IMG/VR virus record: IMGVR_UViG_3300005664_000085
Span: 1 to 24,250 of that record
Reading direction: 5' to 3' (one strand)
DNA: 24,250 bases
Origin: a virus
Under the pieces are notes generated by a model. That model was not told where the DNA came from. It saw only the letters and a program-made list of their open reading frames with translations, and ran no database searches. Positions 4,604-23,778 of the stretch are shown one piece after another. Made by a program: the position numbers and the translations under genes. How positions within the stretch are numbered: position 1 is the stretch's first letter; each line of letters begins with the position of its first letter.

Positions 4604-5386
4604 ATGAAAAAATTGCATTTAAGAAATATAATTAAAGAAGTACTATTGGAAGAAAAAGGTTATTCACGCTACGCTCCAGGAGGTACAACAAAAGGTTTAA
4701 CTAAAGATACATTGGATAAAATATTATTAAGAATAGCTAATGGTGATATTGAAGTAACTGAAGATGAAGATCAAGTTGCTCGTGGAAATAAAGTATTAGA
4801 TAGAGCTGATCCTGAAAACGTAGCACGAATTATTCGTGGAGAAAAACCTGTATATGGAGGTGAAGTAGATCGTATGCAGGAATTAGCTGGAATTCAGAGT
4901 GAAATAAGAGTAAATCAACCCCAATTAAAAAAGTTTAATGATTACATGCATATATTAGATTTTTTTGGAGGAGAATTACCTCAAAGTTACAAACAAGCCC
5001 AAGCAGAAGCATTGCGTTCTGGGTATGATTTAACATTACAAGAATATACTGTAGCAGATCAAAATTCTACTTTTAGTGAAATAAAAGTAAACTCACCTGG
5101 AAAAATTCAATTTGATTATGATGAAGATGATGATGATGGAGAACTAAAAGTAGTTTCATTATCCAAAGATGGGGAAACTTGGTGGGGTACTGAACCTTAT
5201 GTTGATGAACCTGGATTCATAAAAATGGAATTTTTATTTGAAGAGGAAGAAGATAGGGAAGTAGAACAAGAACAAATGGATAAATTAACTTCTTTGTTAG
5301 ATAAACATAATATTCCTTATGAAATCACTGGGGATGATGAATTAAAATTTATCAAAATTCCTAAAGATAAATTAGATCTAAGATAA
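4604..5386 (+). CDS. Modular putative virion protein with two EIKVNNP-type sites
   Basis: Unrecognised 260-aa acidic protein made of pieces. Residues 1-17 (MKKLHLRNIIKEVLLEE) form an amphipathic helix ending Leu-Leu-Glu. Residues 18-90 are a charged domain. Residues 90-106 read DRMQELAGIQSEIRVNQP, and residues 156-165 read TFSEIKVNSP, two members of the motif found across this block. The last 95 residues are very acidic and may be a small beta-rich module. If a prohead protease cuts after the motif Glu (100 and 159), it would yield three chains. The last base of the TAA stop is the A of the next gene's ATG. Function inferred from motif and context only. Confidence 0.8.
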   Translation: MKKLHLRNIIKEVLLEEKGYSRYAPGGTTKGLTKDTLDKILLRIANGDIEVTEDEDQVARGNKVLDRADPENVARIIRGEKPVYGGEVDRMQELAGIQSEIRVNQPQLKKFNDYMHILDFFGGELPQSYKQAQAEALRSGYDLTLQEYTVADQNSTFSEIKVNSPGKIQFDYDEDDDDGELKVVSLSKDGETWWGTEPYVDEPGFIKMEFLFEEEEDREVEQEQMDKLTSLLDKHNIPYEITGDDELKFIKIPKDKLDLR

Positions 5387-6723
5387 TGGGTAAAAAATAT
5401 ACTCCACCAAAATTAAATTTCGGAGATTTAGTTACCTTCAAAAATGGAGATAAACTTTATTGGCAAAATCATCACCAAAATGATGGTTGGGGTTGGTTCA
5501 AAGAAAATGATGGTTCAACTAAACAACCTAAATCTTATAAAGGTATATTAAAAATTGGTAGTAAAATTATTCAAGAAATGGATTTAAAAAGCATACTTAG
5601 AGAAGAGATAGATAACGCTATTGAGAATCAAAGACAAGAAACACTTGAATTTGAAAAAGATCCAACCGAATATATTCTTCAAAAATATCCTTCACTCGAA
5701 GCTACACTTACAGACTTAATGTCTCCTGTGTATAAAGATTATATAACAAGTATATTTGTTGTAAGCCCCAAACCAACTACATTTAAAATACTTTTACATA
5801 ACGGACGTAATTTTCTCTTAATTTATAACCCAAAAGCTTATATGGCAAAAGTGTCTGGAAAAGTTTATCATTTAATGAACTTAAAAGATGAAGAATATGC
5901 TATAAAAGCTATATCAAACCTATTACTACAAGGACTACCTCCTGGTAGTGCAGGTCCTGGTGAAGAGATTGAAAACGAGACCGACATGAAGGACCAATTT
6001 GTCCAAGATATGACAGCGGAACCTGGGGACGAAAATTTAGATTTAGATGGTGTTGATACTTCAGAAGTACCTAATGAAGAAGCTCCTGAAGAAGAGGAAG
6101 CTGAATTACAAGAAGATAAAGAAGTACAAGTAAAGAAACCAATTAGGTTTAGAATAATAAGAGAAAATAAAGATTCTTCTATTTTTAGAAAGAAAAATTT
6201 AATTGAAGCTAGAATACAAAAAGAATGTATCGGTTTAAATGAGTCTGATTCTATATCTCATACGGACACTGAAATATTTATGGAACTTGCCGATCCTGAT
6301 ATGGCTTATAATTATTCTGAAGACATTAGTAATCATTGGGGTTTCGAGGATAAGTATGGAAATAAATTAGAAGTTAGTTTTGATCCTTCATCTAAATATA
6401 TAGAATCTTATTTTGTTTTAAAAAATAAAAAAGGAGAATGGATAGAAGTTTACGATTATGATAAAATGATTGGAAGTATTAATCCTGAGGATGGGTTGGT
6501 AGGTGGAAAAGATGAAATGAGGTCTAATACTATATGTAAAATCATTAGAGATGAAATAATCCCAAAATATTTGATAAATAAAACACCACAACTAATAAAA
6601 CTCCACCCTATAAGTGAATATAGACGTAGAATATTTTTAAAATGTGCTGAAATTTGTAAAGAAAAATATCCACAAATTCAAATTAAAGAAATGGGACCTG
6701 AAATACTTTTAATTAACAAATAA
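5386..6723 (+). CDS. Putative virion-associated protein, 445 aa
   Basis: Unrecognised. Residues 1-64 look like a KOW/SH3-like barrel (FGDLVTFKNGDKLYWQN). Met65 begins a second segment, MDLKSILREEIDNAIENQ, resembling the helical N-termini of neighbouring proteins, and could be an internal start at 5578. Residues about 85-200 form a mixed domain ending in a Gly/Pro stretch (LPPGSAGPGEE). Residues 200-250 are an extremely acidic linker. The last 195 residues are a separate alpha/beta domain, more AT-rich in DNA. It looks like a fusion of at least two originally separate units. Position within the modular block suggests a virion or internal head protein. Confidence 0.75.
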   Translation: MGKKYTPPKLNFGDLVTFKNGDKLYWQNHHQNDGWGWFKENDGSTKQPKSYKGILKIGSKIIQEMDLKSILREEIDNAIENQRQETLEFEKDPTEYILQKYPSLEATLTDLMSPVYKDYITSIFVVSPKPTTFKILLHNGRNFLLIYNPKAYMAKVSGKVYHLMNLKDEEYAIKAISNLLLQGLPPGSAGPGEEIENETDMKDQFVQDMTAEPGDENLDLDGVDTSEVPNEEAPEEEEAELQEDKEVQVKKPIRFRIIRENKDSSIFRKKNLIEARIQKECIGLNESDSISHTDTEIFMELADPDMAYNYSEDISNHWGFEDKYGNKLEVSFDPSSKYIESYFVLKNKKGEWIEVYDYDKMIGSINPEDGLVGGKDEMRSNTICKIIRDEIIPKYLINKTPQLIKLHPISEYRRRIFLKCAEICKEKYPQIQIKEMGPEILLINK

Positions 6724-6726
6724 AAT

Positions 6727-7404
6727 ATGAGGAAAAAAATAATATTCTTCACCGGAGCTGGAATTTCACAGGAAAGTGGGATTCCAACTTTTCGCGGTAG
6801 TGAAGATAGTTTATGGAGTAAATATGATGTTAACTTAGTTGCATCAAGAAGAGGATTGGATATAGCTTTAACTCAAGTTCTTGACTTCCATAATGATGCT
6901 AGAAAATTAATTTCAACTTGTGAACCTAATTACGCTCATAAAGTTATAGCTGAATTAGAAAAAGACCATGATGTTACTGTTATTACAACAAATATAGATA
7001 ACTTACATGAAAGGGCTGGTAGTACTAATGTAATTCATTTACATGGAAATGTTTTTGAAGTTTGTGATTGGAATAAAGACAACCCATATGAATGGAATGA
7101 AGATATTAAAGAAGGAGATTTACATCCAATAACCAAAGAACAACTTAGACATAACACAGTTCTTTTTGAAGAACAACTACCAGTAGATATACCACATCTA
7201 TATAAAAATATAGTTAGAAAATCAAACCATCTAATTATAATAGGTTCTAGTCTACAAGTATACCCATCAGCAAATATAACTCAATATAATAAAAATATAA
7301 TTTATCTAAATCCGGAACCTTGTGGTTTATATGACTTTGAATGGAAGAAAATATTTAAATCAGCCGTAGAAGGTATTGATGAAGTAAAACAATTAATAGC
7401 TTAA
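6727..7404 (+). CDS. Sir2-family NAD-dependent deacylase (sirtuin) lacking zinc cysteines
   Basis: A 225-aa sirtuin; family members use NAD to remove acyl groups from lysines, and some cleave NAD. NAD-binding GAGIS (10-14) and ESGIPTFRG (16-24) are intact, as are TTNIDNLHERAGS (87-99) with the ribose-contacting Asn89 and Asp91, the catalytic HLHG (His106) and IGSSLQVYP (172-180). The usual zinc tetrad (two CxxC pairs) is absent: after His106 only Cys113 appears before Cys198, and the region is shortened to EVCDWNKDNPYEW plus a charged loop. I recall that Bacteroidota sirtuins often lack these cysteines. It sits among virion-like genes. Its job could be modifying host or phage proteins or manipulating NAD during infection. 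Confidence 0.92.
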   Translation: MRKKIIFFTGAGISQESGIPTFRGSEDSLWSKYDVNLVASRRGLDIALTQVLDFHNDARKLISTCEPNYAHKVIAELEKDHDVTVITTNIDNLHERAGSTNVIHLHGNVFEVCDWNKDNPYEWNEDIKEGDLHPITKEQLRHNTVLFEEQLPVDIPHLYKNIVRKSNHLIIIGSSLQVYPSANITQYNKNIIYLNPEPCGLYDFEWKKIFKSAVEGIDEVKQLIA

Positions 7405-7406
7405 AT

Positions 7407-8714
7407 ATGAGTGTAAGTTTATCACCAACTCAACTCTCTAAACCTTATCACTCTAATCACGAGTTTTATAGTTTATATCAAGATCGAGGTGAAAGATTTT
7501 TAGATAAAATAAATAAAGAAGAACCATTTGAATTAACAGATGGTTCTTTTTCAACTATATCAAAATCATCACCTGGAGTCCTCCTTTTGTTAGAAAAAAA
7601 TTATAAAGAATTAGGTGGTGGTAAAAAATTATTCTGTTGTGAAGGTGCTGTATGGAGATCCCTTTCTGAATTTAAAAAAACAGTTGAATTCGGTGCTGGA
7701 GGAGGTCAGGGTGCTGGTTCAAAGAATACAGCAGTACAAGAATCCACTCAATGTGTTTTTAATTCTCTTTCACATTTAAAAGGACAAGAAATTAAACCCG
7801 AAGATATTACTTTCACTACAATATCTGAATCATATCAATACTGTCAAACTACAACTCCATTAGACGAAGTATATAAATTTTCACAAAACGAATCGTGGAA
7901 ACAATCCTTTATAACTAGTTCCAATATACTCTATAGCTATGTAAGCGAATCTAATTATACTCATCATAGAGACTCTCCACTCATAAACGATCTATACGCG
8001 AAATACGCGAGTACAGGCGTAAAATATCAATCGGATAAATGGAATCCAAGCGATGTATGGATTGTAAAAGACAGCGCGTTAGATACCCGATTTTCATCCA
8101 GTATAGAAGAATTAAATAATCAAGTAAAAGACATGTTCCAAAATAAGGAGATAATAGGAGTCAGTTTAAAGAAACTAGGTAAAAACCCTAAATTAGAAGT
8201 AAAGAATATGGATAAAGATAATAAAAAAAAGTACCAATATTTAGGATATAAAACCACTTCAAAAAGTAAAGATATTTCTTTATTATACGATGGAGGTCGA
8301 ATTTATTTTCGTACATTTAATCATGCTACAAATTGGGCTGGTGAAATTTTGGGAAAGACAGCGTCGCATGGTAAGATTGGTTTTGGTCCAATTAACACTA
8401 TCTTAGAAAAACATAATATAAATTCATTTAGGACTTCTAAACATTATAAAATATTGTGGGAAGACTATGAACTTACAAAACAAATATTTCATTCGCTATT
8501 TAATGAATTTATAGAAAATAAATCTAAGGAGGATATTGATATATTTATACAGGAAAAAAATATTGACTGGAGAGTTTCTAAAATGATGGGATTACAATTT
8601 TTATCTATTATAGAATCTCAACCTAAAGATATACAAAATAATATACTTACAGAAATTATCTCTTATGCGAGCAGCGAATTAGACGAAAGCTCTGTTTATT
8701 TAAAATTATCATGA
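7407..8714 (+). CDS. Conserved phage protein, possible PD-(D/E)XK-like fold
   Basis: A 435-aa protein with no confident assignment. Notable segments are a Gly-rich FGAGGGQGAGSKNTAVQEST near residues 95-115, a cysteine pair (KLFCCEGA), KWNPSDVWIVKD near 212-223, and EIIGVSLKKLGKN near 250-262. WNPSDVW followed by SLKK resembles the spacing of an Asp and a Lys in restriction-endonuclease-like folds, but no complete catalytic set can be read with certainty. The C-terminal 120 residues are helical. The stop overlaps the next start as ATGA. Bases around 7970-8110 are less AT-rich than neighbouring modules, suggesting an older resident gene. Confidence 0.75.
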   Translation: MSVSLSPTQLSKPYHSNHEFYSLYQDRGERFLDKINKEEPFELTDGSFSTISKSSPGVLLLLEKNYKELGGGKKLFCCEGAVWRSLSEFKKTVEFGAGGGQGAGSKNTAVQESTQCVFNSLSHLKGQEIKPEDITFTTISESYQYCQTTTPLDEVYKFSQNESWKQSFITSSNILYSYVSESNYTHHRDSPLINDLYAKYASTGVKYQSDKWNPSDVWIVKDSALDTRFSSSIEELNNQVKDMFQNKEIIGVSLKKLGKNPKLEVKNMDKDNKKKYQYLGYKTTSKSKDISLLYDGGRIYFRTFNHATNWAGEILGKTASHGKIGFGPINTILEKHNINSFRTSKHYKILWEDYELTKQIFHSLFNEFIENKSKEDIDIFIQEKNIDWRVSKMMGLQFLSIIESQPKDIQNNILTEIISYASSELDESSVYLKLS

Positions 8715-8776
8715 ACGAAATACAAAGATTACAACAACTAGCTGACATATTAACTGAAATTAAAGTAAATAATCCA
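8711..8776 (+). repeat. Dispersed leader repeat, copy 1
   Basis: About 66 bases encoding MNEIQRLQQLADILTE and IKVNNP are nearly repeated at 10248-10313 and 12733-12798. Similarity extends upstream of the ATG: TTTAAAATTATC here, where it encodes the end of the previous gene, against TTTAAAACTATC before copy 3, where it is non-coding. Confidence 0.8.
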
Positions 8777-9004
8777 AACGTAAAATTCTCTAATTTAAGA
8801 TTAGGAGAAAAATATGATTTGGAAGGAGAAAATATATCAGAAACTGGGGTTGAATTTGATGGTTATAATCCTGTTGAAAATAATAAGTCTGCATTTTTTA
8901 AAATGGATCCAAATGGTTTTGAAGATGATTGGGATGAAGAAGATGGTGGTAATATAATAGAATTTTGGGAAGATGAATTAACAAAAATAACTCCATCAAA
9001 ATAA
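8711..9004 (+). CDS. Short protein: targeting-type leader plus small acidic module
   Basis: A 97-aa protein. Residues 1-16 (MNEIQRLQQLADILTE) are a helical leader closing Ile-Leu-Thr-Glu, followed at once by IKVNNP. The remainder (FSNLRLGEKYDLEGEN onward) is a small acidic beta-rich module ending in negative charge. The same leader recurs in near-identical DNA at 10248 and 12733. The module resembles those ending the proteins at 10818 and 13009 (a lead strand, then LxxGxxY). If cleaved after Glu16 it would give an 81-aa product. ATGA overlap with the previous gene suggests coupled translation. Confidence 0.8.
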   Translation: MNEIQRLQQLADILTEIKVNNPNVKFSNLRLGEKYDLEGENISETGVEFDGYNPVENNKSAFFKMDPNGFEDDWDEEDGGNIIEFWEDELTKITPSK

Positions 9005-9005
9005 A

Positions 9006-10556
9006 ATGAGTATAAAAATTTCCGACATATCAAACATTCTCCTTCAAGATCCCCAAAACAAAAAATGGGATAAAAAATATATCGATGGAGTTATTAAGGA
9101 GAGAATAGCTGTTTTAGATTACAAAAAGACATTTCCACAAGGTCTTAATGAACAAGATGAGGACAAAGACAAAGACAAAGACAAAGACGAAGAGGATGTA
9201 GAATTAGAACCTGAAACTATTCCTGTTCCTAAAGAAGAACCGGAAAATATAAAAATTTCAGACGACGAACTTATCCCAAAGAGTGATGAAGAAGAAATTA
9301 CAGTTGAACCTGATGTAGAAGTAGCCCCTGAAACTATACCTGTTCCAGATGAACCTATTTCTCCAGAAATAGAGAAAAAACAAGCCGAGTATACTACTAT
9401 AAGTAAAGAACAAGCACGTGAATTACTTTCCTTTAAAGGAAAAATATTCCAAGCTGTATTCACTAAACGAGGAGACGGATCACTACGCGCAATGAATGGC
9501 CTTACAGGTGTGCGCAAGTATACGTCTGGTGGAGAACTTCCATATAGTCCCAAAGATAAAGGACTTGTTCCCGTATACGACCTTAAAATTGGAAATGGTC
9601 CTAAGGGCTACAGAATGTTAAATTTGGATGGTTTAAAGACACTTCATATGGACGGTAAGAAGTACAAGATCGACCCATTTTTAAGAGAAATAAAAATAAA
9701 CCAAGAATTAAATCCTACAGATGAAAAACAAACACAAGCATTTGAGGATGTATCTAATACTACTAAATCAACATTTACTGTAGATGGTAATACTATAGAA
9801 GTTATTTTATCTGTAAATCCTACAGTATCATTTGAATATATAGATAAAATATATGGAACTCATTTACAAAATTTAATGACTGGAGACAAACATTTTTATG
9901 AAGATTTAAAAGATGAAATACCCGAAAAATTTCAAAAAGTTGGTATATTATCTTTTTCTGTTAATGAAGAATATGGTACTACCAAATTAAGAAATACTGG
10001 AGAACAATCTAATATACAATTATATTTAAAAATATTAAATAATGTTTTTAATGTTGCTAAAAAATATTTTAGTAAATATGACCCAAATGTTATAATTATA
10101 AATTATCCTGATCGTGATATCCCTAGTGATATTCATAAAAAAAGAAATAATACCTATAAACAATATATTGAAAAAAATAGTTGGGGTCATTATAATGTTA
10201 AAGAAAAAAATGGTATTCTATATTTAGAAAAAAATAATTTAAATACAATGAACGAAATAAAAAGATTACAACAATTAGCTGGAATACTTTCGGAAATAAA
10301 GATAAATAATCCATTAATTGATTCTAAAAAACTTATGGATTTATATAATTCATTACATAATAAAATTGAAGATTATTTTGAAGAAAATGACACGTTTCCT
10401 GAGATAGATGAAGAACTTGAAGAATTAGGAAATAAATATGGTTTTAGTGAGGGTGTATTTTTAAATCCAATCAAAAATGAAAAAATTTTTAATATTTTAG
10501 ATCAAGAAGAGAAAACACAATTATATAAAGACTTAGAAATTTTATTAAACAAATAA
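9006..10556 (+). CDS. Modular protein with WYL_2/DUF2693-like SH3 domain, fused to a leader-type protein
   Basis: A 516-aa chimeric ORF. Residues 1-50 are helical. Residues 51-130 are an acidic/Pro linker that includes a KDKDKDKD repeat and two copies of PETIPVP. Residues about 135-222 (FKGKIFQAVFTKRGDGSLRA, then the MNGLTGVRKY strand and GYRMLNLDG) match what I recall of the Sm-like SH3 domain WYL_2/DUF2693. LREIKINQ at 226-233 is a variant of the block-wide motif and opens a very AT-rich 180-residue segment. Met415 (base 10248) starts an in-frame MNEIKRLQQLAG leader with LSEIKINNP, as if a missing stop fused two genes. A separate product from 10248 is possible. Confidence 0.78.
   Translation: MSIKISDISNILLQDPQNKKWDKKYIDGVIKERIAVLDYKKTFPQGLNEQDEDKDKDKDKDEEDVELEPETIPVPKEEPENIKISDDELIPKSDEEEITVEPDVEVAPETIPVPDEPISPEIEKKQAEYTTISKEQARELLSFKGKIFQAVFTKRGDGSLRAMNGLTGVRKYTSGGELPYSPKDKGLVPVYDLKIGNGPKGYRMLNLDGLKTLHMDGKKYKIDPFLREIKINQELNPTDEKQTQAFEDVSNTTKSTFTVDGNTIEVILSVNPTVSFEYIDKIYGTHLQNLMTGDKHFYEDLKDEIPEKFQKVGILSFSVNEEYGTTKLRNTGEQSNIQLYLKILNNVFNVAKKYFSKYDPNVIIINYPDRDIPSDIHKKRNNTYKQYIEKNSWGHYNVKEKNGILYLEKNNLNTMNEIKRLQQLAGILSEIKINNPLIDSKKLMDLYNSLHNKIEDYFEENDTFPEIDEELEELGNKYGFSEGVFLNPIKNEKIFNILDQEEKTQLYKDLEILLNK
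9162..9188 (+). repeat. GACAAA hexamer tandem repeat
   Basis: Four perfect GACAAA units plus GAC encode an alternating Asp-Lys run in a disordered linker. This is a slippage-type repeat that can vary in length without frameshift. Confidence 0.85.
10248..10313 (+). repeat. Dispersed leader repeat, copy 2 (in-frame inside a longer ORF)
   Basis: Encodes MNEIKRLQQLAG, then ILSE and IKINNP, in frame with the ORF begun at 9006. The ATG could act as an internal start for a 102-aa protein. The DNA closely matches copies at 8711 and 12733, but the upstream flank differs from those two. Confidence 0.75.
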
Positions 10557-10569
10557 TTTAAAATAAAAT

Positions 10570-10818
10570 ATGAAACGTAGCGAATTAAAACAAATAATTA
10601 AAGAGGTAGTAAGAAGTACTCAACCTCAAAGAGTTGCACCTGAACGTGAAACAATCGTTAAACCAGAAACTGACACTCCAGAACGTAAACCAAAGAGACG
10701 TACATTAACTCCACCAACCGAAGCACCTTCCACACGCCCTAAGGCAGAAGGTGTAATTAAAGAAAACGAACAAGATATAGCTCAAAAAATAGCAGACCGT
10801 TTCCAAAAATTAAAATAA
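10570..10818 (+). CDS. Short disordered Pro/Thr-rich protein with helical leader
   Basis: An 82-aa protein. Residues 1-16 (MKRSELKQIIKEVVRS) are an amphipathic basic helix containing Ile-Lys-Glu, like the leaders at 592 and 4604. Residues 17-60 are rich in Pro, Thr, Arg and Lys and should be disordered. The end is a short helix (AQKIADRFQKLK). Small, basic, leader-bearing proteins like this resemble T4 internal head proteins in general character. The last base of its stop is the first base of the next ATG. No catalytic motif. Confidence 0.75.
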   Translation: MKRSELKQIIKEVVRSTQPQRVAPERETIVKPETDTPERKPKRRTLTPPTEAPSTRPKAEGVIKENEQDIAQKIADRFQKLK

Positions 10819-12686
10819 TGGAGTATAATCAAATATTTAAGCCCTCAACCCTAGCTAAGCTAAATAAAAAATCCCAAGAAAATCTTAAATCGATGCTTGG
10901 TGATAAAACACTTATGCAAACAATGATTCAATCACAAGAATTATTGGATGACATCTCTAAGGCAGAAGCTCCATATAAAGATCAATTAGAACAACTTGCT
11001 ATTCAAATGATAGAAGATTTATATCCTATTGTTGAAGAAGAGGGGATAAAGTTGGATGCTAAAATTGTTCCAATGAGCGATATTCATTCAGAATTGGATG
11101 AAATAAAAATAAACAAACCTATTTCTGATGGTGATATTTTAAATACATTTATAAAATTATCAAGTAAAGGAGGAAGACCTATTAAAGGTAGAGAAAAAGA
11201 ATGGATACTTCATTTTGTTGAAGAAACACAAAATATATTAGGAGACATACCTTCAGAGAGGATTTTAAATCTAATTAAAAAAAATCCAACATCTAGATTA
11301 AAAGAATTTATTCCCTTTATAAACGAAGAAATATCCCCTGAATCTCGTCGCCGTATAATAAATGGAATTACTCAAGGTGCAGCACTACGTGGTGCTTTCT
11401 CATTCTATCTATTTAAAGATTATCTTGACGCAATCGACCCTACTCTTATAGACAAATATAACCAAATAATGAAAAATTCATTTGGGATTTATGATGATGA
11501 TAATGCTATAGCAATGTTATTATCTTTATTAGCTCAAGGTCATAAAGCTGCTGGGGGTTCAAGTAAAGTTATTATTAATGAGATAAAAGTAAAACAACCT
11601 AAATTAATATTAGAATGTTTTTTTGATGAATCTTGGGTTGATTTTTTAAAACAAAATCCTATATTATTTAAAATGCTTAAGAATAATATATTAAGCATGA
11701 ATGGGGATAATATATATGATAAAGAAGATAATGTTTATAATATGGCAAATGATTTTTCTCATTGGGGTGGATCTTTGGGATTTAATGGATTAGAAGATTG
11801 GAATAAAGATAAATTAAAACAATTCATTCAAAAATTATTAACTCCTAAATACACTAAAGACTATGAAAATACCATTAATGTATTTAATAAAGCTATAGAT
11901 AATACTCCTTGTTATTCAAAAAAATATAAACAAAAAATTATCCAAAAACAAGGAGAAAAATTAAATAATCCTGAATGGATAAAAAATGAATTAGATAGAC
12001 TAAACGAACAACAAGAATCCGGTATAACAATTCGTGCTCGCGCTATTTGTTTTCCAATGTTAGTTCATGAAATAATTAAAGGTTTATATGAATTAGTTTC
12101 ATTACAAGGTTTTAAAGGTGATAAAGAAGCTAATCAAGGAGTTGTAGATAAAGTAGATACCTTATCAAATGAGTTGCATGATATTAAGTTTGGTAAACAT
12201 ATTTTTGATGCATTAAATGATATTTTTGCAGACTCACCACACTCTGATCCTCGTATACGAGAATTCTTCTTTTCCGAAGTATATCAACTTGAAGATGGTG
12301 ATTTTATAGATTTCGTAGAAAACGCTATTAATGAAGAATTATCTCCAAAACAAAAAAGATGGGTTGACTCTACATTAAAAGATATATCTTTCGATTTAAA
12401 AGCTGATGATTATGATCAAGAAGGGATTGATGAAATAAAAGTAAACAATCCTGAATCAATTAAATTCGAAAATTTAAAGATAGGAGATGTATATAGTTTC
12501 AAAATAAAAAATGGTAATATGGAAAAATTAATAATAGTTAATAAAACGCCCAATGAACTAAATCCGTATTCTAAACCTGCTATTGTTGGGAATCGAAATA
12601 TTAATATGAATAATGAAGATGATGATGATAATGATCATTATTTAACCATTTCTAAAGATGATATTATTAATATAAAAAATATTTAA
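10818..12686 (+). CDS. Putative virion protein split by two EIKVNNP-headed segments
   Basis: A 622-aa protein. The backbone appears in three stretches: residues 1-94; 172-254 (SPESRRRIINGITQGAALRG, then FSFYLFKDYLDAIDP); and about 402-538 (TIRARAICFPMLVHEIIKGL). These resemble a conserved structural-type protein I recall from T4-like marine phages. Between them lie unrelated, more AT-rich segments, each opening with the motif: LDEIKINKP (Glu95) and INEIKVKQP (Glu255). A third, IDEIKVNNP (Glu539), opens the C-terminal acidic beta-rich module. The backbone would read through plausibly if the inserts were removed. Each motif fits [I/L]-x-E before the possible cut. Virion function inferred. Confidence 0.78.
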   Translation: MEYNQIFKPSTLAKLNKKSQENLKSMLGDKTLMQTMIQSQELLDDISKAEAPYKDQLEQLAIQMIEDLYPIVEEEGIKLDAKIVPMSDIHSELDEIKINKPISDGDILNTFIKLSSKGGRPIKGREKEWILHFVEETQNILGDIPSERILNLIKKNPTSRLKEFIPFINEEISPESRRRIINGITQGAALRGAFSFYLFKDYLDAIDPTLIDKYNQIMKNSFGIYDDDNAIAMLLSLLAQGHKAAGGSSKVIINEIKVKQPKLILECFFDESWVDFLKQNPILFKMLKNNILSMNGDNIYDKEDNVYNMANDFSHWGGSLGFNGLEDWNKDKLKQFIQKLLTPKYTKDYENTINVFNKAIDNTPCYSKKYKQKIIQKQGEKLNNPEWIKNELDRLNEQQESGITIRARAICFPMLVHEIIKGLYELVSLQGFKGDKEANQGVVDKVDTLSNELHDIKFGKHIFDALNDIFADSPHSDPRIREFFFSEVYQLEDGDFIDFVENAINEELSPKQKRWVDSTLKDISFDLKADDYDQEGIDEIKVNNPESIKFENLKIGDVYSFKIKNGNMEKLIIVNKTPNELNPYSKPAIVGNRNINMNNEDDDDNDHYLTISKDDIINIKNI

Positions 12687-12732
12687 AATATATAACCTCC
12701 CTAAAGAAGATTAATTAATATTTAAAACTATC

Positions 12733-12798
12733 ATGAACGAAATAAAAAGATTACAACAACTAGCTGGTATAATAACTGAAATAAAAGTAAACAATCCT
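12733..12798 (+). repeat. Dispersed leader repeat, copy 3
   Basis: Near-identical DNA to copies at 8711 and 10248. The 12 bases upstream (TTTAAAACTATC) differ by one base from the coding sequence before copy 1, so a unit larger than the leader seems to have been duplicated. Confidence 0.8.
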
Positions 12799-13005
12799 AT
12801 ATATCCATATTTTAATGAATGGAAAGAAGATAATATATTAAGTATGCAAGACCAGGAGTATGAACCCCATGAAATATTAGACTTTAAGGACCAGAATACT
12901 CCAGAAGATGCAGTGAATTATTTAATTAATATTGGTTATCTTGATCAAAATGATTTTGATCATAATTTAACTTTTATTAAAACAGGTTTATATCCTAAAT
13001 ATTAA
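12733..13005 (+). CDS. Short protein with leader repeat, 90 aa
   Basis: Residues 1-16 (MNEIKRLQQLAG then IITE) precede IKVNNP, the clearest example of the block's leader and site. The remaining 68 residues (a Trp/Asp/Glu-rich segment, then TPEDAVNYLINIGYLDQNDF) look like a small helical domain not shared with the other leader proteins. It is preceded by 46 bases of non-coding DNA and followed 3 bases after its stop by the 792-codon gene. If cut after Glu16 the product is 74 aa. Unknown function. Confidence 0.78.
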   Translation: MNEIKRLQQLAGIITEIKVNNPIYPYFNEWKEDNILSMQDQEYEPHEILDFKDQNTPEDAVNYLINIGYLDQNDFDHNLTFIKTGLYPKY

Positions 13006-13008
13006 ACA

Positions 13009-15387
13009 ATGAAACTAACAGATATATTAATACTAGAATACTCAGACAAGACTATCCAAACTACAATAGATAGATGGAAGAAAACATCACCTCAAATCGA
13101 CGATAATCTTGCAAGACAAGTAATACAACGTTTTGATCAGATTAAATCAGGTTTATCTTCTAAACTACAACAAGTAGCCCTTAGCGACGAACTAAAAACA
13201 GGTCAAAATTATCTTAATATAGATAAGTATTCTTGGGCTGATATGGTTAACTTACTGCGTTCCTTACCTGAAAAAGAGGATAAGATAAAAAAAGATGCTA
13301 TCCAGATGTTCGTAGAAAAAGAACGTATGGATAAAGGTGATGTAACGAGCTACGTAATTCGTTTTATGAATAACAGACGTAACCTTAAATACGCCTTAGC
13401 GAACGGAACCGAAGATGGAAATTATAGCAAAGAAGAAGTACAAAAATTAGTCCCAAAACGTCTTATTCCTAACGATGCATATCTAGACCCTCGTGCTTGG
13501 GATTTTGGTCAGATGGAACATATGTTAGATGCTTTATTCCCTATGCAAGCTAAAGTTGGGGAAGAAGGTGATCAAAATACCGCTACTACAGACGCAGATA
13601 AAGTGTATGATAAAGATGGTATCGAAATTTATAAAGGAGATGCACAACATAAATGTATCGCTTATAATCCTTCCGAAGGTGGTAGGAAAAAATATGGTTG
13701 GTGTATAGCTCAACCATCTAATACAATGTATGATAGGTATCGTTTTATGGAAGGTACAAACCGTATGTTTTATTTCGTATTTGATAGAAGTCTCCCCGAT
13801 ACAGATCCATATCACGCTTTTGTAATTCATGTTGGTGAAGGAAATAAAAAATATTGGATTACAGATGCAAAAAATAGTGGAGATAAAGAATTTCATCCTT
13901 GGGAAAAACTTAAAACAACAGCTCCACCAGTTTGGCCTAAAATAGGACATTTAGAACATATTTTTAAATATGTTGATCCTTCTAAAGCTGAGATTTCTGG
14001 TGCCGCAATGCGAGGTAAAAGATTATCTGCAAATGACTTCCGTGAGTTAGATTACGAAGATAAACAAAATTATGTTCAAGCTAATGCGGGATCTTTATCA
14101 CCTGAAATTCTTAAAATATTAGATAAAGAATTAAAGAACTTAGCCATAAATTATGGTCAAAAATTCCCTTATGCGGACTTAAAAGATAACGAAGGACTAG
14201 CAAAAAGATATGCAGCATTCCGTTTCAGACATACAAATTATTCTAAGGATCCTATACCTTTACCTTACGTTAAATTTTTAGATGACGAAGCTAAACAAAA
14301 ATATCTAGAAACATTCGACGACAATCTTACATTTGAATATATAGAAAAATTCTTTGGCCCCAAAGCTACAGAAAATTATGTACAAAAACAATTAAAAAAT
14401 CTAGATTACTTACCTCCTCAAGCTATTAAGTATATTAAGGATCCAAAACAAAAACAAATATTTGAAATTTATTCAAAACTGTTTACACCTTGGGAATTTG
14501 GTAAGGATACAAATATTGGTGACGAAGAATTATCTACTTCTGCAGATATGCCTGTTCAAGATATTAACCCAAAACCTATTACAGCCAAAGAGTGGAATCA
14601 ACTTAGTCCCGAAGAACGTAAAGTTATTACAAACTTAGCTGAAAAAGTAAATGGGAAAGAACAATATTCAACTCTATTATACGCTCTTCCTTATATTATA
14701 GAAGATAAAGGTAGAAAATTAGTACTCCTACCCCTAAAAGGTGAAGACTATAGTTATGAAGATTGGGTTTTAGTTGATGAAAATAACAAAGTAGTACAAA
14801 AAGGTATAGATGGAAATACTTCTTCTGTAGCAGGTACACCTTTAATAAGTGGATACCCAGATTTCAGTAGTGATCCAAGAAGAGTATACCCTTCATCTGA
14901 ACTTGAAATTAATAGTGGTAAAAGTGATATAAAAGAAATTAAAATCAATAAACCATTTTATCTCCAAAAAGGAAATATATATGATATATACGAATATGAT
15001 GGGGATTATGGAAAATATGATTATATTTTCGATGGTGAAGATCAAGGAGATTATATATTTTATCATAAAAATGATGAAGATGTTCATATATTTATCCCTA
15101 AAGATGATTTAAATAATTATAAAATTTCTAAATCAATAAACCAAATTAAAGAAATTAAAGTAAATAATCCAAACCCATTAAAACAACTTATGAAAGATAA
15201 AGGTGTTGACCAAAAATGGTTTGATAAATATATTATTCGAATGGATGAACTTACTCCAGAAGAATTACAAGATCTAGAATATGTTTCAGATAGGATAGAT
15301 ACACATCTTGATAATCAGGACGATGAAGAAGACTTTGAAGAACAATTCCTTCGAGAACGTCTCATGCATCGCGCAGGATTACTTTAG
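13009..15387 (+). CDS. Large putative virion protein with GWCIA-type domain and two terminal EIKVNNP segments
   Basis: A 792-aa protein, the largest uninterrupted gene product in the window. It starts MKLTDILILEYSDK, a short leader with Ile-Leu-Glu. Residues about 200-305 include CIAYNPSEGGRKKYGWCIA, FYFVFDRSLPD, HAFVIHV and YWITDAKNSGD. I have seen similar Trp-Cys signatures in uncharacterised phage and plasmid proteins but know no function. Residues 350-490 hold imperfect helical repeats. IKEIKINKP (Glu643) opens a Tyr/Asp-rich beta-type module; IKEIKVNNP (Glu715) opens a last acidic helical piece ending RLMHRAGLL. The 3' 430 bases are more AT-rich than the core. A terminator follows directly. 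Likely virion-associated. Confidence 0.78.
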   Translation: MKLTDILILEYSDKTIQTTIDRWKKTSPQIDDNLARQVIQRFDQIKSGLSSKLQQVALSDELKTGQNYLNIDKYSWADMVNLLRSLPEKEDKIKKDAIQMFVEKERMDKGDVTSYVIRFMNNRRNLKYALANGTEDGNYSKEEVQKLVPKRLIPNDAYLDPRAWDFGQMEHMLDALFPMQAKVGEEGDQNTATTDADKVYDKDGIEIYKGDAQHKCIAYNPSEGGRKKYGWCIAQPSNTMYDRYRFMEGTNRMFYFVFDRSLPDTDPYHAFVIHVGEGNKKYWITDAKNSGDKEFHPWEKLKTTAPPVWPKIGHLEHIFKYVDPSKAEISGAAMRGKRLSANDFRELDYEDKQNYVQANAGSLSPEILKILDKELKNLAINYGQKFPYADLKDNEGLAKRYAAFRFRHTNYSKDPIPLPYVKFLDDEAKQKYLETFDDNLTFEYIEKFFGPKATENYVQKQLKNLDYLPPQAIKYIKDPKQKQIFEIYSKLFTPWEFGKDTNIGDEELSTSADMPVQDINPKPITAKEWNQLSPEERKVITNLAEKVNGKEQYSTLLYALPYIIEDKGRKLVLLPLKGEDYSYEDWVLVDENNKVVQKGIDGNTSSVAGTPLISGYPDFSSDPRRVYPSSELEINSGKSDIKEIKINKPFYLQKGNIYDIYEYDGDYGKYDYIFDGEDQGDYIFYHKNDEDVHIFIPKDDLNNYKISKSINQIKEIKVNNPNPLKQLMKDKGVDQKWFDKYIIRMDELTPEELQDLEYVSDRIDTHLDNQDDEEDFEEQFLRERLMHRAGLL

Positions 15388-17879: not shown

Positions 17880-18500
17880 ATGAAATATTGTAATAAGTGT
17901 AAAGAAAATAAAGAATTAATTAATTTTACTAATAAAACTTCTTCTCCTGATGGGAAATCATATGTCTGTAGACTATGTAAAAAGGAGATTGATAAGAATT
18001 ATTATAATAATAATAAAGAAACATTCCATATTAGAAATAAAAATTGGAAATGTAATAATTTAGAAAGATTTAAAGAAGTTAATAAAAAATGGAACAAAGA
18101 TAACCCAGATAAAGTAAAAGAAGCTCAAATTAAATATAGAATAAATAATCCTTCATATAAAATAAGAAATTTATTTCATAATTTAAAAAATAGATTCCAA
18201 AATGGTCATGGTAAAGAAGAATATAAAATCATAAAGGATTATATAGAAAACTTATTTATAGAAAATATGAATTGGAATACTATTGAAATAGATCATAAAA
18301 TCCCTATAACATGGTTTAAATTAGATACTCCTCTAATATTAATTAATGATTTAAGAAACTTACAACCTTTATTTACTGAAGATAATAGAAATAAAGCAGC
18401 TAGTTATTGCCATCCTGTGGAAAAAGAATACTATGATCTTATAATTAATTATATCAAACCAAGAAGAGTTAAACAATTGCTAGAAATAATCAACCTTTAA
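17880..18500 (+). CDS. HNH homing endonuclease with N-terminal zinc ribbon
   Basis: A 206-aa free-standing HNH endonuclease. The N-terminus has a four-Cys zinc ribbon: Cys4 and Cys7 (YCNKCKE), Cys30 and Cys33 (YVCRLCKKE). The middle (35-95) is Asn/Lys-rich and basic, suited to DNA contact. The HNH core is IEIDHKIPITWF (His139), then DLRNLQPLF (Asn160) and EDNRNKAAS. Very AT-rich, like the two GIY-YIG genes. It lies between the kinase-like gene and the acidic pre-terminase gene with promoter-like elements on both sides. No remnant of a split neighbour is visible, so it appears to be an intergenic insertion. Confidence 0.9.
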   Translation: MKYCNKCKENKELINFTNKTSSPDGKSYVCRLCKKEIDKNYYNNNKETFHIRNKNWKCNNLERFKEVNKKWNKDNPDKVKEAQIKYRINNPSYKIRNLFHNLKNRFQNGHGKEEYKIIKDYIENLFIENMNWNTIEIDHKIPITWFKLDTPLILINDLRNLQPLFTEDNRNKAASYCHPVEKEYYDLIINYIKPRRVKQLLEIINL

Positions 18501-20101: not shown

Positions 20102-20998
20102 ATGATAAATATAACATCTTCCTCTCAAATTACAAAAATTTACCTAGTTACAAATTGTTTTGGTAATCCAAATAAAATTTATATAGGTAAAACAAAAGGT
20201 TCAAGAAAAAATGATCATAAGAAAACTTATGGTCAAAATATAAATTATGATTACATAGATGAAGTTAACTCTCTAAGTCGTGAAGACTGGGAACCTCTAG
20301 AAACATTTTGGATTAATTATTTTAGATTTTTAGGATTTGAAATAATGAATGTTAGAAAGAAAGGTGGAAGCGGTCCTGAATTTCATTCTGAATTAACTAA
20401 AAATATTATAAAGGAAAATAATATTGGAAAAAGAAATAAACCTGTATTACAATATGATTTAGAAGGTAATTTTATTAAAGAATGGGAGAGTATATTAGAT
20501 GCTTCTATTAAATTAAAAATAGATAGAGGTAATATAGCTAATTGTTGTAATAAAATTTATAAGACTAGTGGAGATTTTATTTGGAGACATTCAAATGATC
20601 CTTTGGAATGTGATTATATATTAACAGGTAAATCTAGTAATGAAGTAATTCAATTTGATTTAGATTGGAATTTTATTAAAAAATTTAACTCAACTACAGA
20701 AGCTAGTAATGAGTTAGGTATAGGATCTAGTGGAATTGGAGATTGTTGTACTGGAAAATATCAAAAAATAAAAAATTTTAGATTTGCATACGCTAATGAT
20801 ATTTATGATAAAAACAATAATATACCAAAGATAAAAAGAAAATGTGGTTATAAAGTTTATATAGAAAATAATATACATATATTCAAAAATTTAAAAGATA
20901 TTAGAAGTTTAGGTATTAGTGAATGGAATATTAAACGTTGTATTAATTCCATAGATGGTAAATATAATAATTATAGAATAGAAAAATATAAAGAGTAA
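20102..20998 (+). CDS. GIY-YIG homing endonuclease with two NUMOD1-like modules
   Basis: A 298-aa paralogue of the endonuclease at 1502. The GIY-YIG domain (KIYLVTN, then KIYIGKT; basic KGSRKNDHKK; Glu in LETFWINYF) spans about residues 10-95. It lacks the long NUMOD3 part. Two NUMOD1/IENR1-like repeats follow (VLQYDLEGNFIKEWESILDA near 118 and VIQFDLDWNFIKKFNSTTEA near 182), plus a third partial module (IFKNLKDIRSLGISEWNIKR). The different module count suggests different target recognition. The stop overlaps the terminase ATG by one base. It stands between the terminase remnant and the intact terminase, so the terminase 5' end was probably its target. Confidence 0.93.
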   Translation: MINITSSSQITKIYLVTNCFGNPNKIYIGKTKGSRKNDHKKTYGQNINYDYIDEVNSLSREDWEPLETFWINYFRFLGFEIMNVRKKGGSGPEFHSELTKNIIKENNIGKRNKPVLQYDLEGNFIKEWESILDASIKLKIDRGNIANCCNKIYKTSGDFIWRHSNDPLECDYILTGKSSNEVIQFDLDWNFIKKFNSTTEASNELGIGSSGIGDCCTGKYQKIKNFRFAYANDIYDKNNNIPKIKRKCGYKVYIENNIHIFKNLKDIRSLGISEWNIKRCINSIDGKYNNYRIEKYKE

Positions 20999-23778
20999 TG
21001 GCACAAGAAGAAAATATAATACCACAAAAATCATTTAAGGAATTAGTTAAAGACGAATTTTATAAATGTGCCAGTGACCCTGTATACTTCTGTAAAAAAT
21101 ATTATTATATACAACATCCACAACGAGGTAGGATGTTATTTAATCTATATCCATTCCAAGAAACACTATTAAGGCGTTTTCAAAAGGGGGAGTGGAGTAT
21201 AATTAATAAATCGAGGCAGCTAGGTATATCAACCCTAGTTTCTGCTTTCTCACTTTGGTTAATGTTATTCCATAAGGATAAGAATATTCTTGTATTAGCT
21301 ACTACGCAAGATACAGCGAAAAACTTAATTACTAAAGTACGATTTTCATACGATCAACTTCCATCTTGGTTAAGATTAAAAGATACAGAGAATAATAAAT
21401 TATTACTTAAGTTAGTAAACGGTTCTCAAATACAAGCTAAACCCGCAACTGATAATGCATCAAGATCTGAAGCCGTTACTTTACTTGTAATAGATGAGGC
21501 CGCATTTATTGATAATATTGAAAGAATCTTTACTGGTGCTCAACAAACCCTAGCTACTGGGGGTTCTTGTATCGCATTATCATCACCAAATGGAACGGGT
21601 AATTGGTTTTATAAAGAATTTACCAAAGCACAAGAGAAATTAAACAGTTTTGTTCCACTTTTACTTCCTTGGACTGTCCATCCAGAACGAGACCAAACTT
21701 GGAGAGACCAACAAGATAGAGATTTAGGTGTAAAACATGCAGCACAAGAATGTTTCTCAGGAGATACAATTGTGTATACAAAATTAGGACCTAAATATAT
21801 TAAAGACATCCAAGAAGGAGATATAGTATTAAGTCATGATGGAACTTTTAATAAGGTATTAAAAACATTTAATCATATAGAGGAAAACAATTTATATGAA
21901 ATCAAAAATGGGATTAATAATATTCAAAAATATACAACAGGTAATCATCCTTTCTTAAACATTGTTAATAAATGGACTACAGTTGAAAGTATATATGATC
22001 ATAATCAATATATACAGTTATTTCCAACTAACATAAATCAGTATGATAATCCTTCCAAAATAGATTTATTAGATTATATCAAAGTTAATAATCCACAATA
22101 TTTTCCTCTAAAATCTAATGATGAATCAATTTGGATTAATAAAAAATCTTACGTACATCGACATATAGAATTTGATTATGAATTAGGTTTTATTATAGGT
22201 TGTTTTTTATCTGAAGGTAGTTATTGGAATAATGTAGTTTCATTTTCGTATAATGGAGAAACAGAGAGTGAAGAACATTCATGGCCTTTAATATTACAAA
22301 ATTATATTAATAAAAAGTTTAATATAAGTATATTTTCTCATTACCTTAGTAAACGAGATAAAGGAGCTAATTTATATGTTAAAAACCAAATATTTCTTAA
22401 ATTCATAGAGTTATGTATTGATGGAGGAAAATATTGTCAAGATAAACATATAAGTTCTTTTGTATGGGAAAATAGTAATAAAGAAACTCTAAAAGGTATA
22501 CTTGATGGTATAATGGTTGGAGATGGAATGTTAAAATCTGATTACAATTGTAAATTAGGTTTAACATCTGAAAGACTAGTGTATGATTCTTTATATATAA
22601 GTAATTTGTTGGGGTTATATAATACAACAATATCAATAAATAAAAAAGAAGGTACTAATATTATATTAGGAAAAGAATATCAATGTAAAAATAGTACTAT
22701 ATTAACTTATAGTAATACTAAGATTGATTCGAATGAAAAAATATTTAGTAAGAGAATAAAAAATTATAATACAGTAGTTAATAATAGAAAGACTACTAAA
22801 TTTATGATTGATAATGGGATTCCATTAACTATATTACAATTAAATCCTTCATCAGAAAAAATACAAGTATATAATTTTGAAGTTGAAAATACACACACTT
22901 ATGTAACAGAGTATGGTATAGTACATAATTGTGACGCAGATTTCATCACGAGTGGTGAATCGGTCATCGATACTGATGTATTAAATTATTATACTAAAAA
23001 TATAGCACGAGAACCTCTTGAACGTAGAGGGTTAAATGGAGAATATTGGATATTTGAAATACCTGATTATTCTCGATCTTACGCACTTATTGCCGATGTT
23101 GCTCGTGGAGATGGAGCAGACAGTTCTACATTCCATGTTTTTGATATAGAATTATGTCGTCAAGTAGCTGAATTTAAATCTCAATTACCTACTAAAGATT
23201 TTGCTAATGTTATACATGCAGCTTGTGTTGAATGGAATAACGCTTTGTGTGTTATCGAAAATGCAAGTATAGGATGGGACGTTGTAGGTAGAATGATAGA
23301 CAAAGAATATAAAAACTTATATTATTCTCCAAAAATAGACAACCCTATTGATTCGGAGCAATATTTATCTAAGTATAATAGTAATGTAGGTATGGTTCCT
23401 GGATTTTCTATGACCCAAAAGACAAGACCACTTGTCATCTCAAAACTAATTTCGTATATGAACGAATATTCAGTTGATATATTTTCAAAACGTGCATTAG
23501 AAGAGATTAGAACATTTATATATAAAAATGGTAGACCACAAGCACAACAAGGTCATAATGATGACTTAGTTTTACCTATTGGAATATTTTTATTCTTGAG
23601 AGAAACAACACTAATGTATCAAAAACAAAGTGAAGAATTATCGAGAGCAGTATTAAATGGTTTCACAAGTGTAAATTATGCTACTCCTGCTGTATATAAT
23701 AATCCATATGAACAAAATCCATATCGCATGCAAGATGGACATGGGGGTGTAGAAGACTTAACCTGGTTATTAGGCTAA
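20998..23778 (+). CDS. terL: Terminase large subunit (T4 gp17-type) containing an intein
   Basis: A 926-aa precursor; 533 aa after removal of the 393-aa intein. The ATPase-nuclease motor packages phage DNA into proheads through the portal. Walker A is SRQLGIST (72-79); Walker B is TLLVIDEAAF (161-170). The coupling-type SSPNGTGNWFYKEF stretch follows. The nuclease domain after the intein shows ADVARGDGADSS with metal-binding Asp residues and GHNDDLVLP near the end. The intein lies at AAQE/CDADF, the conserved QEC site of gp17-like terminases. The first 20 residues appear to be a replacement for the remnant at 19983. No Shine-Dalgarno; the start overlaps the endonuclease stop. The portal gene follows 24 bases later. 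Confidence 0.95.
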   Translation: MAQEENIIPQKSFKELVKDEFYKCASDPVYFCKKYYYIQHPQRGRMLFNLYPFQETLLRRFQKGEWSIINKSRQLGISTLVSAFSLWLMLFHKDKNILVLATTQDTAKNLITKVRFSYDQLPSWLRLKDTENNKLLLKLVNGSQIQAKPATDNASRSEAVTLLVIDEAAFIDNIERIFTGAQQTLATGGSCIALSSPNGTGNWFYKEFTKAQEKLNSFVPLLLPWTVHPERDQTWRDQQDRDLGVKHAAQECFSGDTIVYTKLGPKYIKDIQEGDIVLSHDGTFNKVLKTFNHIEENNLYEIKNGINNIQKYTTGNHPFLNIVNKWTTVESIYDHNQYIQLFPTNINQYDNPSKIDLLDYIKVNNPQYFPLKSNDESIWINKKSYVHRHIEFDYELGFIIGCFLSEGSYWNNVVSFSYNGETESEEHSWPLILQNYINKKFNISIFSHYLSKRDKGANLYVKNQIFLKFIELCIDGGKYCQDKHISSFVWENSNKETLKGILDGIMVGDGMLKSDYNCKLGLTSERLVYDSLYISNLLGLYNTTISINKKEGTNIILGKEYQCKNSTILTYSNTKIDSNEKIFSKRIKNYNTVVNNRKTTKFMIDNGIPLTILQLNPSSEKIQVYNFEVENTHTYVTEYGIVHNCDADFITSGESVIDTDVLNYYTKNIAREPLERRGLNGEYWIFEIPDYSRSYALIADVARGDGADSSTFHVFDIELCRQVAEFKSQLPTKDFANVIHAACVEWNNALCVIENASIGWDVVGRMIDKEYKNLYYSPKIDNPIDSEQYLSKYNSNVGMVPGFSMTQKTRPLVISKLISYMNEYSVDIFSKRALEEIRTFIYKNGRPQAQQGHNDDLVLPIGIFLFLRETTLMYQKQSEELSRAVLNGFTSVNYATPAVYNNPYEQNPYRMQDGHGGVEDLTWLLG
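21751..22929 (+). mobile_element. LAGLIDADG intein within terminase
   Basis: 393 codons inserted before Cys (22930) of the C-extein. Cys1 opens CFSGDTIVYT (block A). YTTGNHPF is block B with its Thr-x-x-His. The dodecapeptides LGFIIGCFLSEGSY and LKGILDGIMVGDGML are the two LAGLIDADG helices with acidic residues, so the homing endonuclease appears intact. YNFEVENTHTYVTEYGIVHN gives blocks F and G with terminal His-Asn, followed by Cys+1. All splicing residues are present. The DNA is much more AT-rich than the exteins, consistent with recent arrival. Confidence 0.95.

Follow-up and report, generated by a model that had tools for sequence, protein, structure and literature searches.

Mobile in-frame protein cassettes beginning at candidate prohead-protease sites in late genes of an uncultured phage and its relatives

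In phage T4, gp21 cleaves after L/I-X-E, and the internal proteins carry unrelated payloads behind a common short capsid-targeting sequence; one of them, IPI, 76 aa long when mature, acts against a restriction enzyme (PMC9026906, PMC3012670). With Asp in place of Glu at the cleavage position, T4 processing is blocked (PMC9026906). In phiKZ, 201phi2-1, and SPN3US, short protease motifs ending in Glu, S/A-X-E in the case of phiKZ, are borne by many proteins of the head and of ejection (PMC9026906, PMC5694885). The polyvalent proteins of phages and conjugative elements are long multi-domain proteins for which packaging and injection have been predicted (Iyer et al. 2017, PMC5512222).

The genes described here belong to a 24,250-nucleotide stretch of an uncultured virus (IMG/VR record IMGVR_UViG_3300005664_000085, hereafter the window) and to its relatives. 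They resemble those of T4 IPI, IPII, IPIII, and Alt in their short N-terminal leader ending in [IL]xE (24 leader-type cassettes), in the unrelated small payloads behind a shared leader, in a gp21-type protease, here present in relatives, and in their late or head gene setting. In contrast to the T4 proteins, the payloads are far more numerous and have in common a conserved tag at the N-terminus that the cut would leave; besides standing alone, they occur within conserved proteins and in polyproteins, flanked by sites on either side. They are mostly acidic, with a median net charge of −6, unlike the T4 internal proteins, for which a basic character is described. Because they lack the basic charge, we class them only as analogs in mode of action, not as T4 internal proteins themselves. 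Processing of the phiKZ type is similar in that head proteins have protease motifs ending in Glu, but the cuts in phiKZ, 201phi2-1, and SPN3US remove propeptides, and exchangeable cassettes lying between cuts were not found in the literature cited. The polyvalent proteins may find a parallel in carrier 40352 of a 132-kb relative (G1, IMG/VR 3300020045_010841), which has CTP_transf_like, a cytidylyltransferase-like (NMNAT-type) domain, and DUF5661, together with ART-like and metalloprotease-like stretches recognized by eye. Most units other than the domains of this carrier have no Pfam or PHROG match. Unlike in polyvalent proteins, uniform junctions of protease site plus tag lie between the modules, most of which are small domains of unknown type, and the prohead protease would release them at these junctions. 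The G1 carrier L090:352-3255 starts with a cytidylyltransferase (NMNAT-type) domain, and a Sir2-like ORF, recognized by eye, lies among the carrier genes of the window (6727-7404); the two might represent NAD-related cargo.

The preliminary description of the window had placed eleven copies of an IKVNNP-like motif preceded by Glu in six phage genes. All eleven Glu codons (4901, 5078, 8756, 9687, 10293, 11100, 11580, 12432, 12778, 14935, and 15151) are present and in frame, in genes 4604, 8711, 9006, 10818, 12733, and 13009. The strict motif E[IV][KR][VI][NK]xP occurs ten times in the window ORFs against a mean of 0.011 (maximum 1) in 1,000 within-protein shuffles, and G1 has 24 motif copies against 0.043 from within-protein shuffles. 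Glu precedes [IVLMY][KR][VI][NKS]xP in 10 of the 12 occurrences in the window, and in 86 of 90 over ten phage records. The eleven sites are real and above chance. The variant at 9687 (FLRE/IKINQE, where a slash marks a junction) is a real unit, as the orthologous sites of two relatives read FLRE/VKINNP and NIKE/IKVNPP; the site at 4901 (IQSE/IRVNQP) is off by one, as already noted.

G1 and a second relative, G2 (3300033512_000125, 90 kb), share most genes of the window as orthologs and contain numerous copies of the motif. The nearest cultured phage by capsid protein is Flavobacterium phage immuto (53.6%), with a T4-type head gene set. By comparison with the relatives, the motif is seen to form the first residues of in-frame protein cassettes, which are distributed in the window as follows.

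4871..4903, + strand: RMQELAGIQSE, a leader-like internal peptide preceding cassette 1 of gene 4604; a fused leader gene, from comparison with relatives
4904..5080, + strand: cassette 1 of gene 4604, IRVNQP...STFSE, 59 aa
5081..5383, + strand: cassette 2 of gene 4604, IKVNSP..., 101 aa, running as far as the stop; three tandem units in a 1,795-aa protein of relative G12 are homologous
8711..8758, + strand: leader MNEIQRLQQLADILTE of standalone cassette gene 8711
8759..9001, + strand: standalone cassette of gene 8711, IKVNNP..., 81 aa
9690..10247, + strand: variant cassette of gene 9006, IKINQE..., 186 aa; full motif at the orthologous sites of relatives
10248..10295, + strand: internal leader MNEIKRLQQLAGILSE of gene 9006, a leader-bearing gene fused in frame
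10296..10553, + strand: C-terminal cassette of gene 9006, IKINNP..., 86 aa
11103..11327, + strand: site 1 cassette of gene 10818, IKINKP...PFINE, 75 aa; site empty in G2 and 27 other homologs
11583..12008, + strand: site 2 cassette of gene 10818, IKVKQP...DRLNE, 142 aa; absent from 27 other homologs
12435..12683, + strand: added C-terminal cassette of gene 10818, GIDE/IKVNNP..., 83 aa
12733..12780, + strand: leader MNEIKRLQQLAGIITE of standalone cassette gene 12733
12781..13002, + strand: standalone cassette of gene 12733, IKVNNP..., 74 aa; a homolog in relative G3 lies behind a similar leader
13009..13038, + strand: MKLTDILILE, with a terminal IxE, as candidate leader at the N-terminus of host gene 13009 (from sequence)
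14938..15153, + strand: cassette of gene 13009 near the C-terminus, IKINKP...NQIKE, 72 aa
15154..15324, + strand: cassette of gene 13009, IKVNNPNPLKQ...HLDNQDD, 57 aa; a different protein, in G2, has a homologous unit at its C-terminus

The initial eleven coordinates were extended to 103 units collected over 15 contigs, 94 of them with the strict tag, and nearly all payloads are without a known domain; Pfam and PHROGs searches on the window and ten carrier polyproteins gave almost no payload matches. Cassette lengths are mostly 56-120 aa (73 of the 94 strict units fall within 50-120 aa); longer units may be unresolved pairs, and the variant cassette of gene 9006 is probably two units. The cassettes are found alone behind a leader such as that of gene 12733 or MIKLIDLLNE, as inserts within conserved late-region proteins whose relatives are without the insert, and in tandem polyproteins of up to 1,795 aa. 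They start directly behind [ILV]xE: among the 94 strict units, 86 have L, I, or V at P3, P2 is mostly N or D, and P1 is E. The tag that follows has the form [IVYM][KR][VI][NKS]xP. Two junctions of the window do not fit, one on the 3′ side (HLDNQDD) and one on the 5′ side (IQSE). The segments on both sides of each site had been described as unrelated; however, conserved sequence lies to the left, either the leader (MNEIKRLQQLAGI) or a host protein, and in many cases the right side returns to host homology.

Gene 10818 shows this variation most clearly. Its site 1 is empty in G2 (SLDE/SISPESRRR), holds one cassette in the window (ELDE/IKINKP...PFINE/EISPESRRR), and two different tandem cassettes in G1, followed by QLDE/GISPEGRRR. 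At site 2, the window, G1, and G2 each have a different insert. After GIDE, at the C-terminus, the additions differ between the window and G1, and G2 stops there. None of 27 further homologs (310-425 aa) has inserts. Similarly, gene 5386 has two cassettes in G1 and none in the window or G2. The 73-aa gp72 of immuto corresponds to a six-cassette G1 carrier in its bare form. Separate genes are also joined: immuto gp80 and gp88 are united in G1 into one 967-aa carrier with cassettes between them, homologs of window genes 9006 and 10570 are fused in G2 across KNLNE/NMKKSELRQ, and homologs of 10818 and 13009 are fused in G12. The G1 ortholog of gene 4604 ends just upstream of the position of RMQELAGIQSE (RGEKPQY, then stop), and the G2 counterpart of this leader junction reads RMKELAGLKKE/ITVNDP.

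Clustering the payloads of the 103 units gave 60 singletons and 14 small clusters, and the clusters join units located in different places. The standalone leader gene 20907 of G1 matches internal units in G11, G14, and G19, the tail of window gene 4604 matches three units of the G12 array, and an unrelated G2 protein has, as its C-terminal unit, a match to the final cassette of window gene 13009. Homologous payloads thus lie in different carriers, and the cassettes have therefore been exchanged. The 1,795-aa polyprotein of G12 (L190:4614-9998) comprises at least 11 units; one beta-domain family accounts for seven of them and a second family for three. In G11, an 813-aa polyprotein (L188:1587-4025) has six tandem units all beginning with YK[IV]N[KT]P, and standalone genes have the different 10-aa leader MIKLIDLLNE. 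Two small ORFs, G001:C1:39643-39804 and 110977-111171, begin with MKVNNPN directly at the start codon; they are possibly tags without a leader, and one is outside the head region. Searches by tblastn of window genes 12733 and 13009 and the two largest arrays against cultured phages gave no convincing match, gene 10818 matches just two huge uncultured phages, at its C-terminal part, and the head regions of the cultured relatives immuto, Mel-JY01, and RM378 have no motif-bearing carrier in the stretches examined. Many exact DNA matches to the pattern in IMG/VR were dropped as wrong-frame or belonging to unrelated proteins.

The leader motif R[ML]QxLAGI is almost restricted to three places: the N-terminus of small late genes, fused junctions, and the scaffold C-terminus (in G1, G2, G11, G12, and immuto). 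By analogy with the T4 capsid-targeting sequence (PMC9026906), we infer that cargo is led into the core of the prohead by this peptide, perhaps through mimicry of the scaffold tail. A 914-aa protein (G012:C1:112288-115032) has the scaffold-tail peptide at both ends, FLRMQQLAGI near its start and FLRMQKIAGLKK at its end.

A gp21-type protease was expected downstream of the portal. It is present in relatives, but the window record ends inside the portal gene, before the position of the G1 protease. Peptidase_S77 was found in G1 and G2 and in six further relatives, of which G11, G12, and G13 are motif-bearing, while in the other three (G20-G22) the motif is absent or in few copies. The G1 enzyme (L088:14248-14862) matches the solved T4 gp21 structure 5JBL (E=5.7e-18). 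No S77 match was obtained in G3 (85 kb, with a single motif gene), which may be a fragment. All 24 G1 sites lie at 7.3-42.7 kb of the 132 kb, around the terminase, portal, protease, scaffold, and capsid genes, and the remainder of G1 has none.

The window gene for the large terminase subunit (20998-23778) is broken by about 370 aa, starting C-FSGDTIV and ending VHN/C, an intein with a likely endonuclease, whereas the G1 ortholog (536 aa) is uninterrupted. An IKVNNP at 22078, within this insert, has Tyr in front and is probably a coincidence. ORFs resembling homing endonucleases, two GIY-YIG and one HNH, lie at 1502-2221, 17880-18500, and 20102-20998 and, by eye, are absent at the G1 counterparts. 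An intein-like account of the cassettes themselves was dropped, as they have no splicing residues in common.

We consider it likely that the cassettes are head cargo separated by a protease, like the T4 internal proteins, arranged as mobile cassettes; the known logic of these proteins is thereby extended to mobile cassettes and polyproteins. The motif would mark where a T4-type prohead-protease site, [ILV]xE, meets the start of a payload, [IVYM][KR][VI][NKS]xP. The phage and its relatives would maintain a payload pool as standalone genes behind a leader resembling the scaffold tail, as in-frame inserts, and as tandem polyproteins. Carriers would bring the payloads into the prohead, where a gp21-type protease would cut [IL]xE on both sides and free each payload with an N-terminus of the IKVNNP type; the freed payloads would probably be ejected into the host along with the DNA. 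Cassette structure, empty sites, carrier exchange, flanking [IL]xE, conservation at the protein level, confinement to the G1 head region, and the protease of the relatives are read from sequence comparison; from these we infer cleavage, packaging, ejection, and an effector role of the payloads. Prohead-protease sites in head-associated polyproteins had been proposed at the outset, and the S77 enzymes of relatives, with a conserved [LM]xE at their own C-terminus, the head-region location of the G1 sites, and the [IL]xE flanks, absent where nothing follows, agree with this proposal. The products predicted here differ: in place of short peptides, they are mostly payload domains of 56-120 aa, in mobile in-frame cassettes whose sites can be empty in relatives. 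Counterpoints are the acidic charge of most payloads, the lack of an S77 match in G3, the two window junctions that do not fit, and the differing candidate sites of the capsid protein. Moreover, cleavage of gene 10818 at its two internal sites would divide a conserved host protein, which would be tolerable only if the pieces stay together.

Concerning the tag, an explanation compatible with protease-separated cargo is that IKVNxP is extended recognition on the primed side, making the cargo a better protease substrate, with no role after cleavage. The tag always directly follows the cut position, its first six residues are strongly constrained, and the scaffold of G11, an expected protease substrate, reads GIEE/YRIKKP. 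Nevertheless, [IL]xE is also the right end of the cassettes at 20 of 22 host junctions, and these twenty ends are without the tag. Since the host residues following cassette ends (EISPE, QQESG, SRYTQ, and EKIPG) never bear it, the tag belongs to payload N-termini. It is also absent from the conserved [LM]xE at the C-terminus of the prohead protease and from the candidate sites of the capsid protein, which read VxE or LLE and not [IL][ND]E. Such an extended recognition role is possible but disfavoured. As the tag is absent after host-side [IL]xE sites, it is probably dispensable for cutting; the earlier remark that the sequence after the cut exceeds what the protease needs is supported by these sites and by the capsid protein.

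Alternatively, the carriers, as head or other structural proteins, might stay uncut, with the units as their exchangeable domains and [IL]xE-IKVNxP as a conserved linker or docking strand between domains; we consider this unlikely. The inserts do lie in loops and at C-termini of conserved proteins, and the payloads resemble folded domains: a payload family with eight members was modelled as a compact, beta-rich domain (mean pLDDT 81.6) with motif residues 1-4 disordered, and in the gene 10818 model the cassette junctions are disordered and site 2 falls between two strands. The disorder at the motif and the junctions also favours protease-separated cargo. A modelled cassette and a modelled carrier had no significant match in the PDB and a viral fold library. 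However, [IL]xE is present at the right end only where more protein follows, and at none of 37 natural C-termini; host-junction boundaries were placed by eye from alignments, and this C-terminus comparison is the stronger control. Related payloads switch their tail by context, RKEDVKLINE before host sequence and NKDVNIK at a stop. Moreover, standalone genes have the junction directly behind a short leader, separate genes of relatives are fused through the same junction, and E is near-invariant while P2 is variable, all of which speaks against uncut domains.

Selfish DNA elements inserting in frame, with the motif as a coded element end devoid of a role in the protein, could also be suggested by the empty sites, the tandem copies, and the recurrence of a payload in different genes, but we regard this as very improbable. 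The conserved DNA termini expected of such an element were not found: observed codon identity at the motif is near that expected from codon usage (0.642 against 0.621 in the window, 0.648 against 0.647 in G2, and 0.529 against 0.591 in G11; somewhat above expectation in G1 and G14). Tag residues change between clades (IKVNNP, YKINKP, IKVKSP, and MKVNNP) while the pattern stays; together with the codon identities, this indicates that conservation acts on the protein. In addition, the payloads are mostly unrelated, and the G1 sites are all in head-region genes. Finally, although the genome is AT-rich and abundant in I, K, and N codons, a chance origin of the repeats in low-complexity coding sequence is already refuted by the shuffles of the window and G1 and by alignments in which the orthologous positions of the motif are conserved.

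Within the framework of protease-separated cargo, we tentatively propose, as somewhat short of an even prospect, a polyprotein strategy like that of eukaryotic viruses. A shared, mobile pool of small effectors, each with an N-terminal [IVY]K[VI]NxP tag, would be loaded by insertion at the prohead-protease sites of any carrier bound for the head. Only cleavage would expose the tag, which would then have a job of its own in packing, ejection, or host recognition. No report of such arrays was found in the literature searched, the coverage of which was limited. The reading as head cargo, if true, raises the question of why mature cargo should bear a common N-terminal tag of the IKVNNP type if the protease seems not to need it. 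If our reading is true, the junction would be a signature by which head cargo is picked straight from genome sequence (94 strict candidates over 15 contigs). It would offer a route to candidate injected effectors in uncultured phages, and these phages would provide a natural example of capsid loading with arbitrary small proteins.
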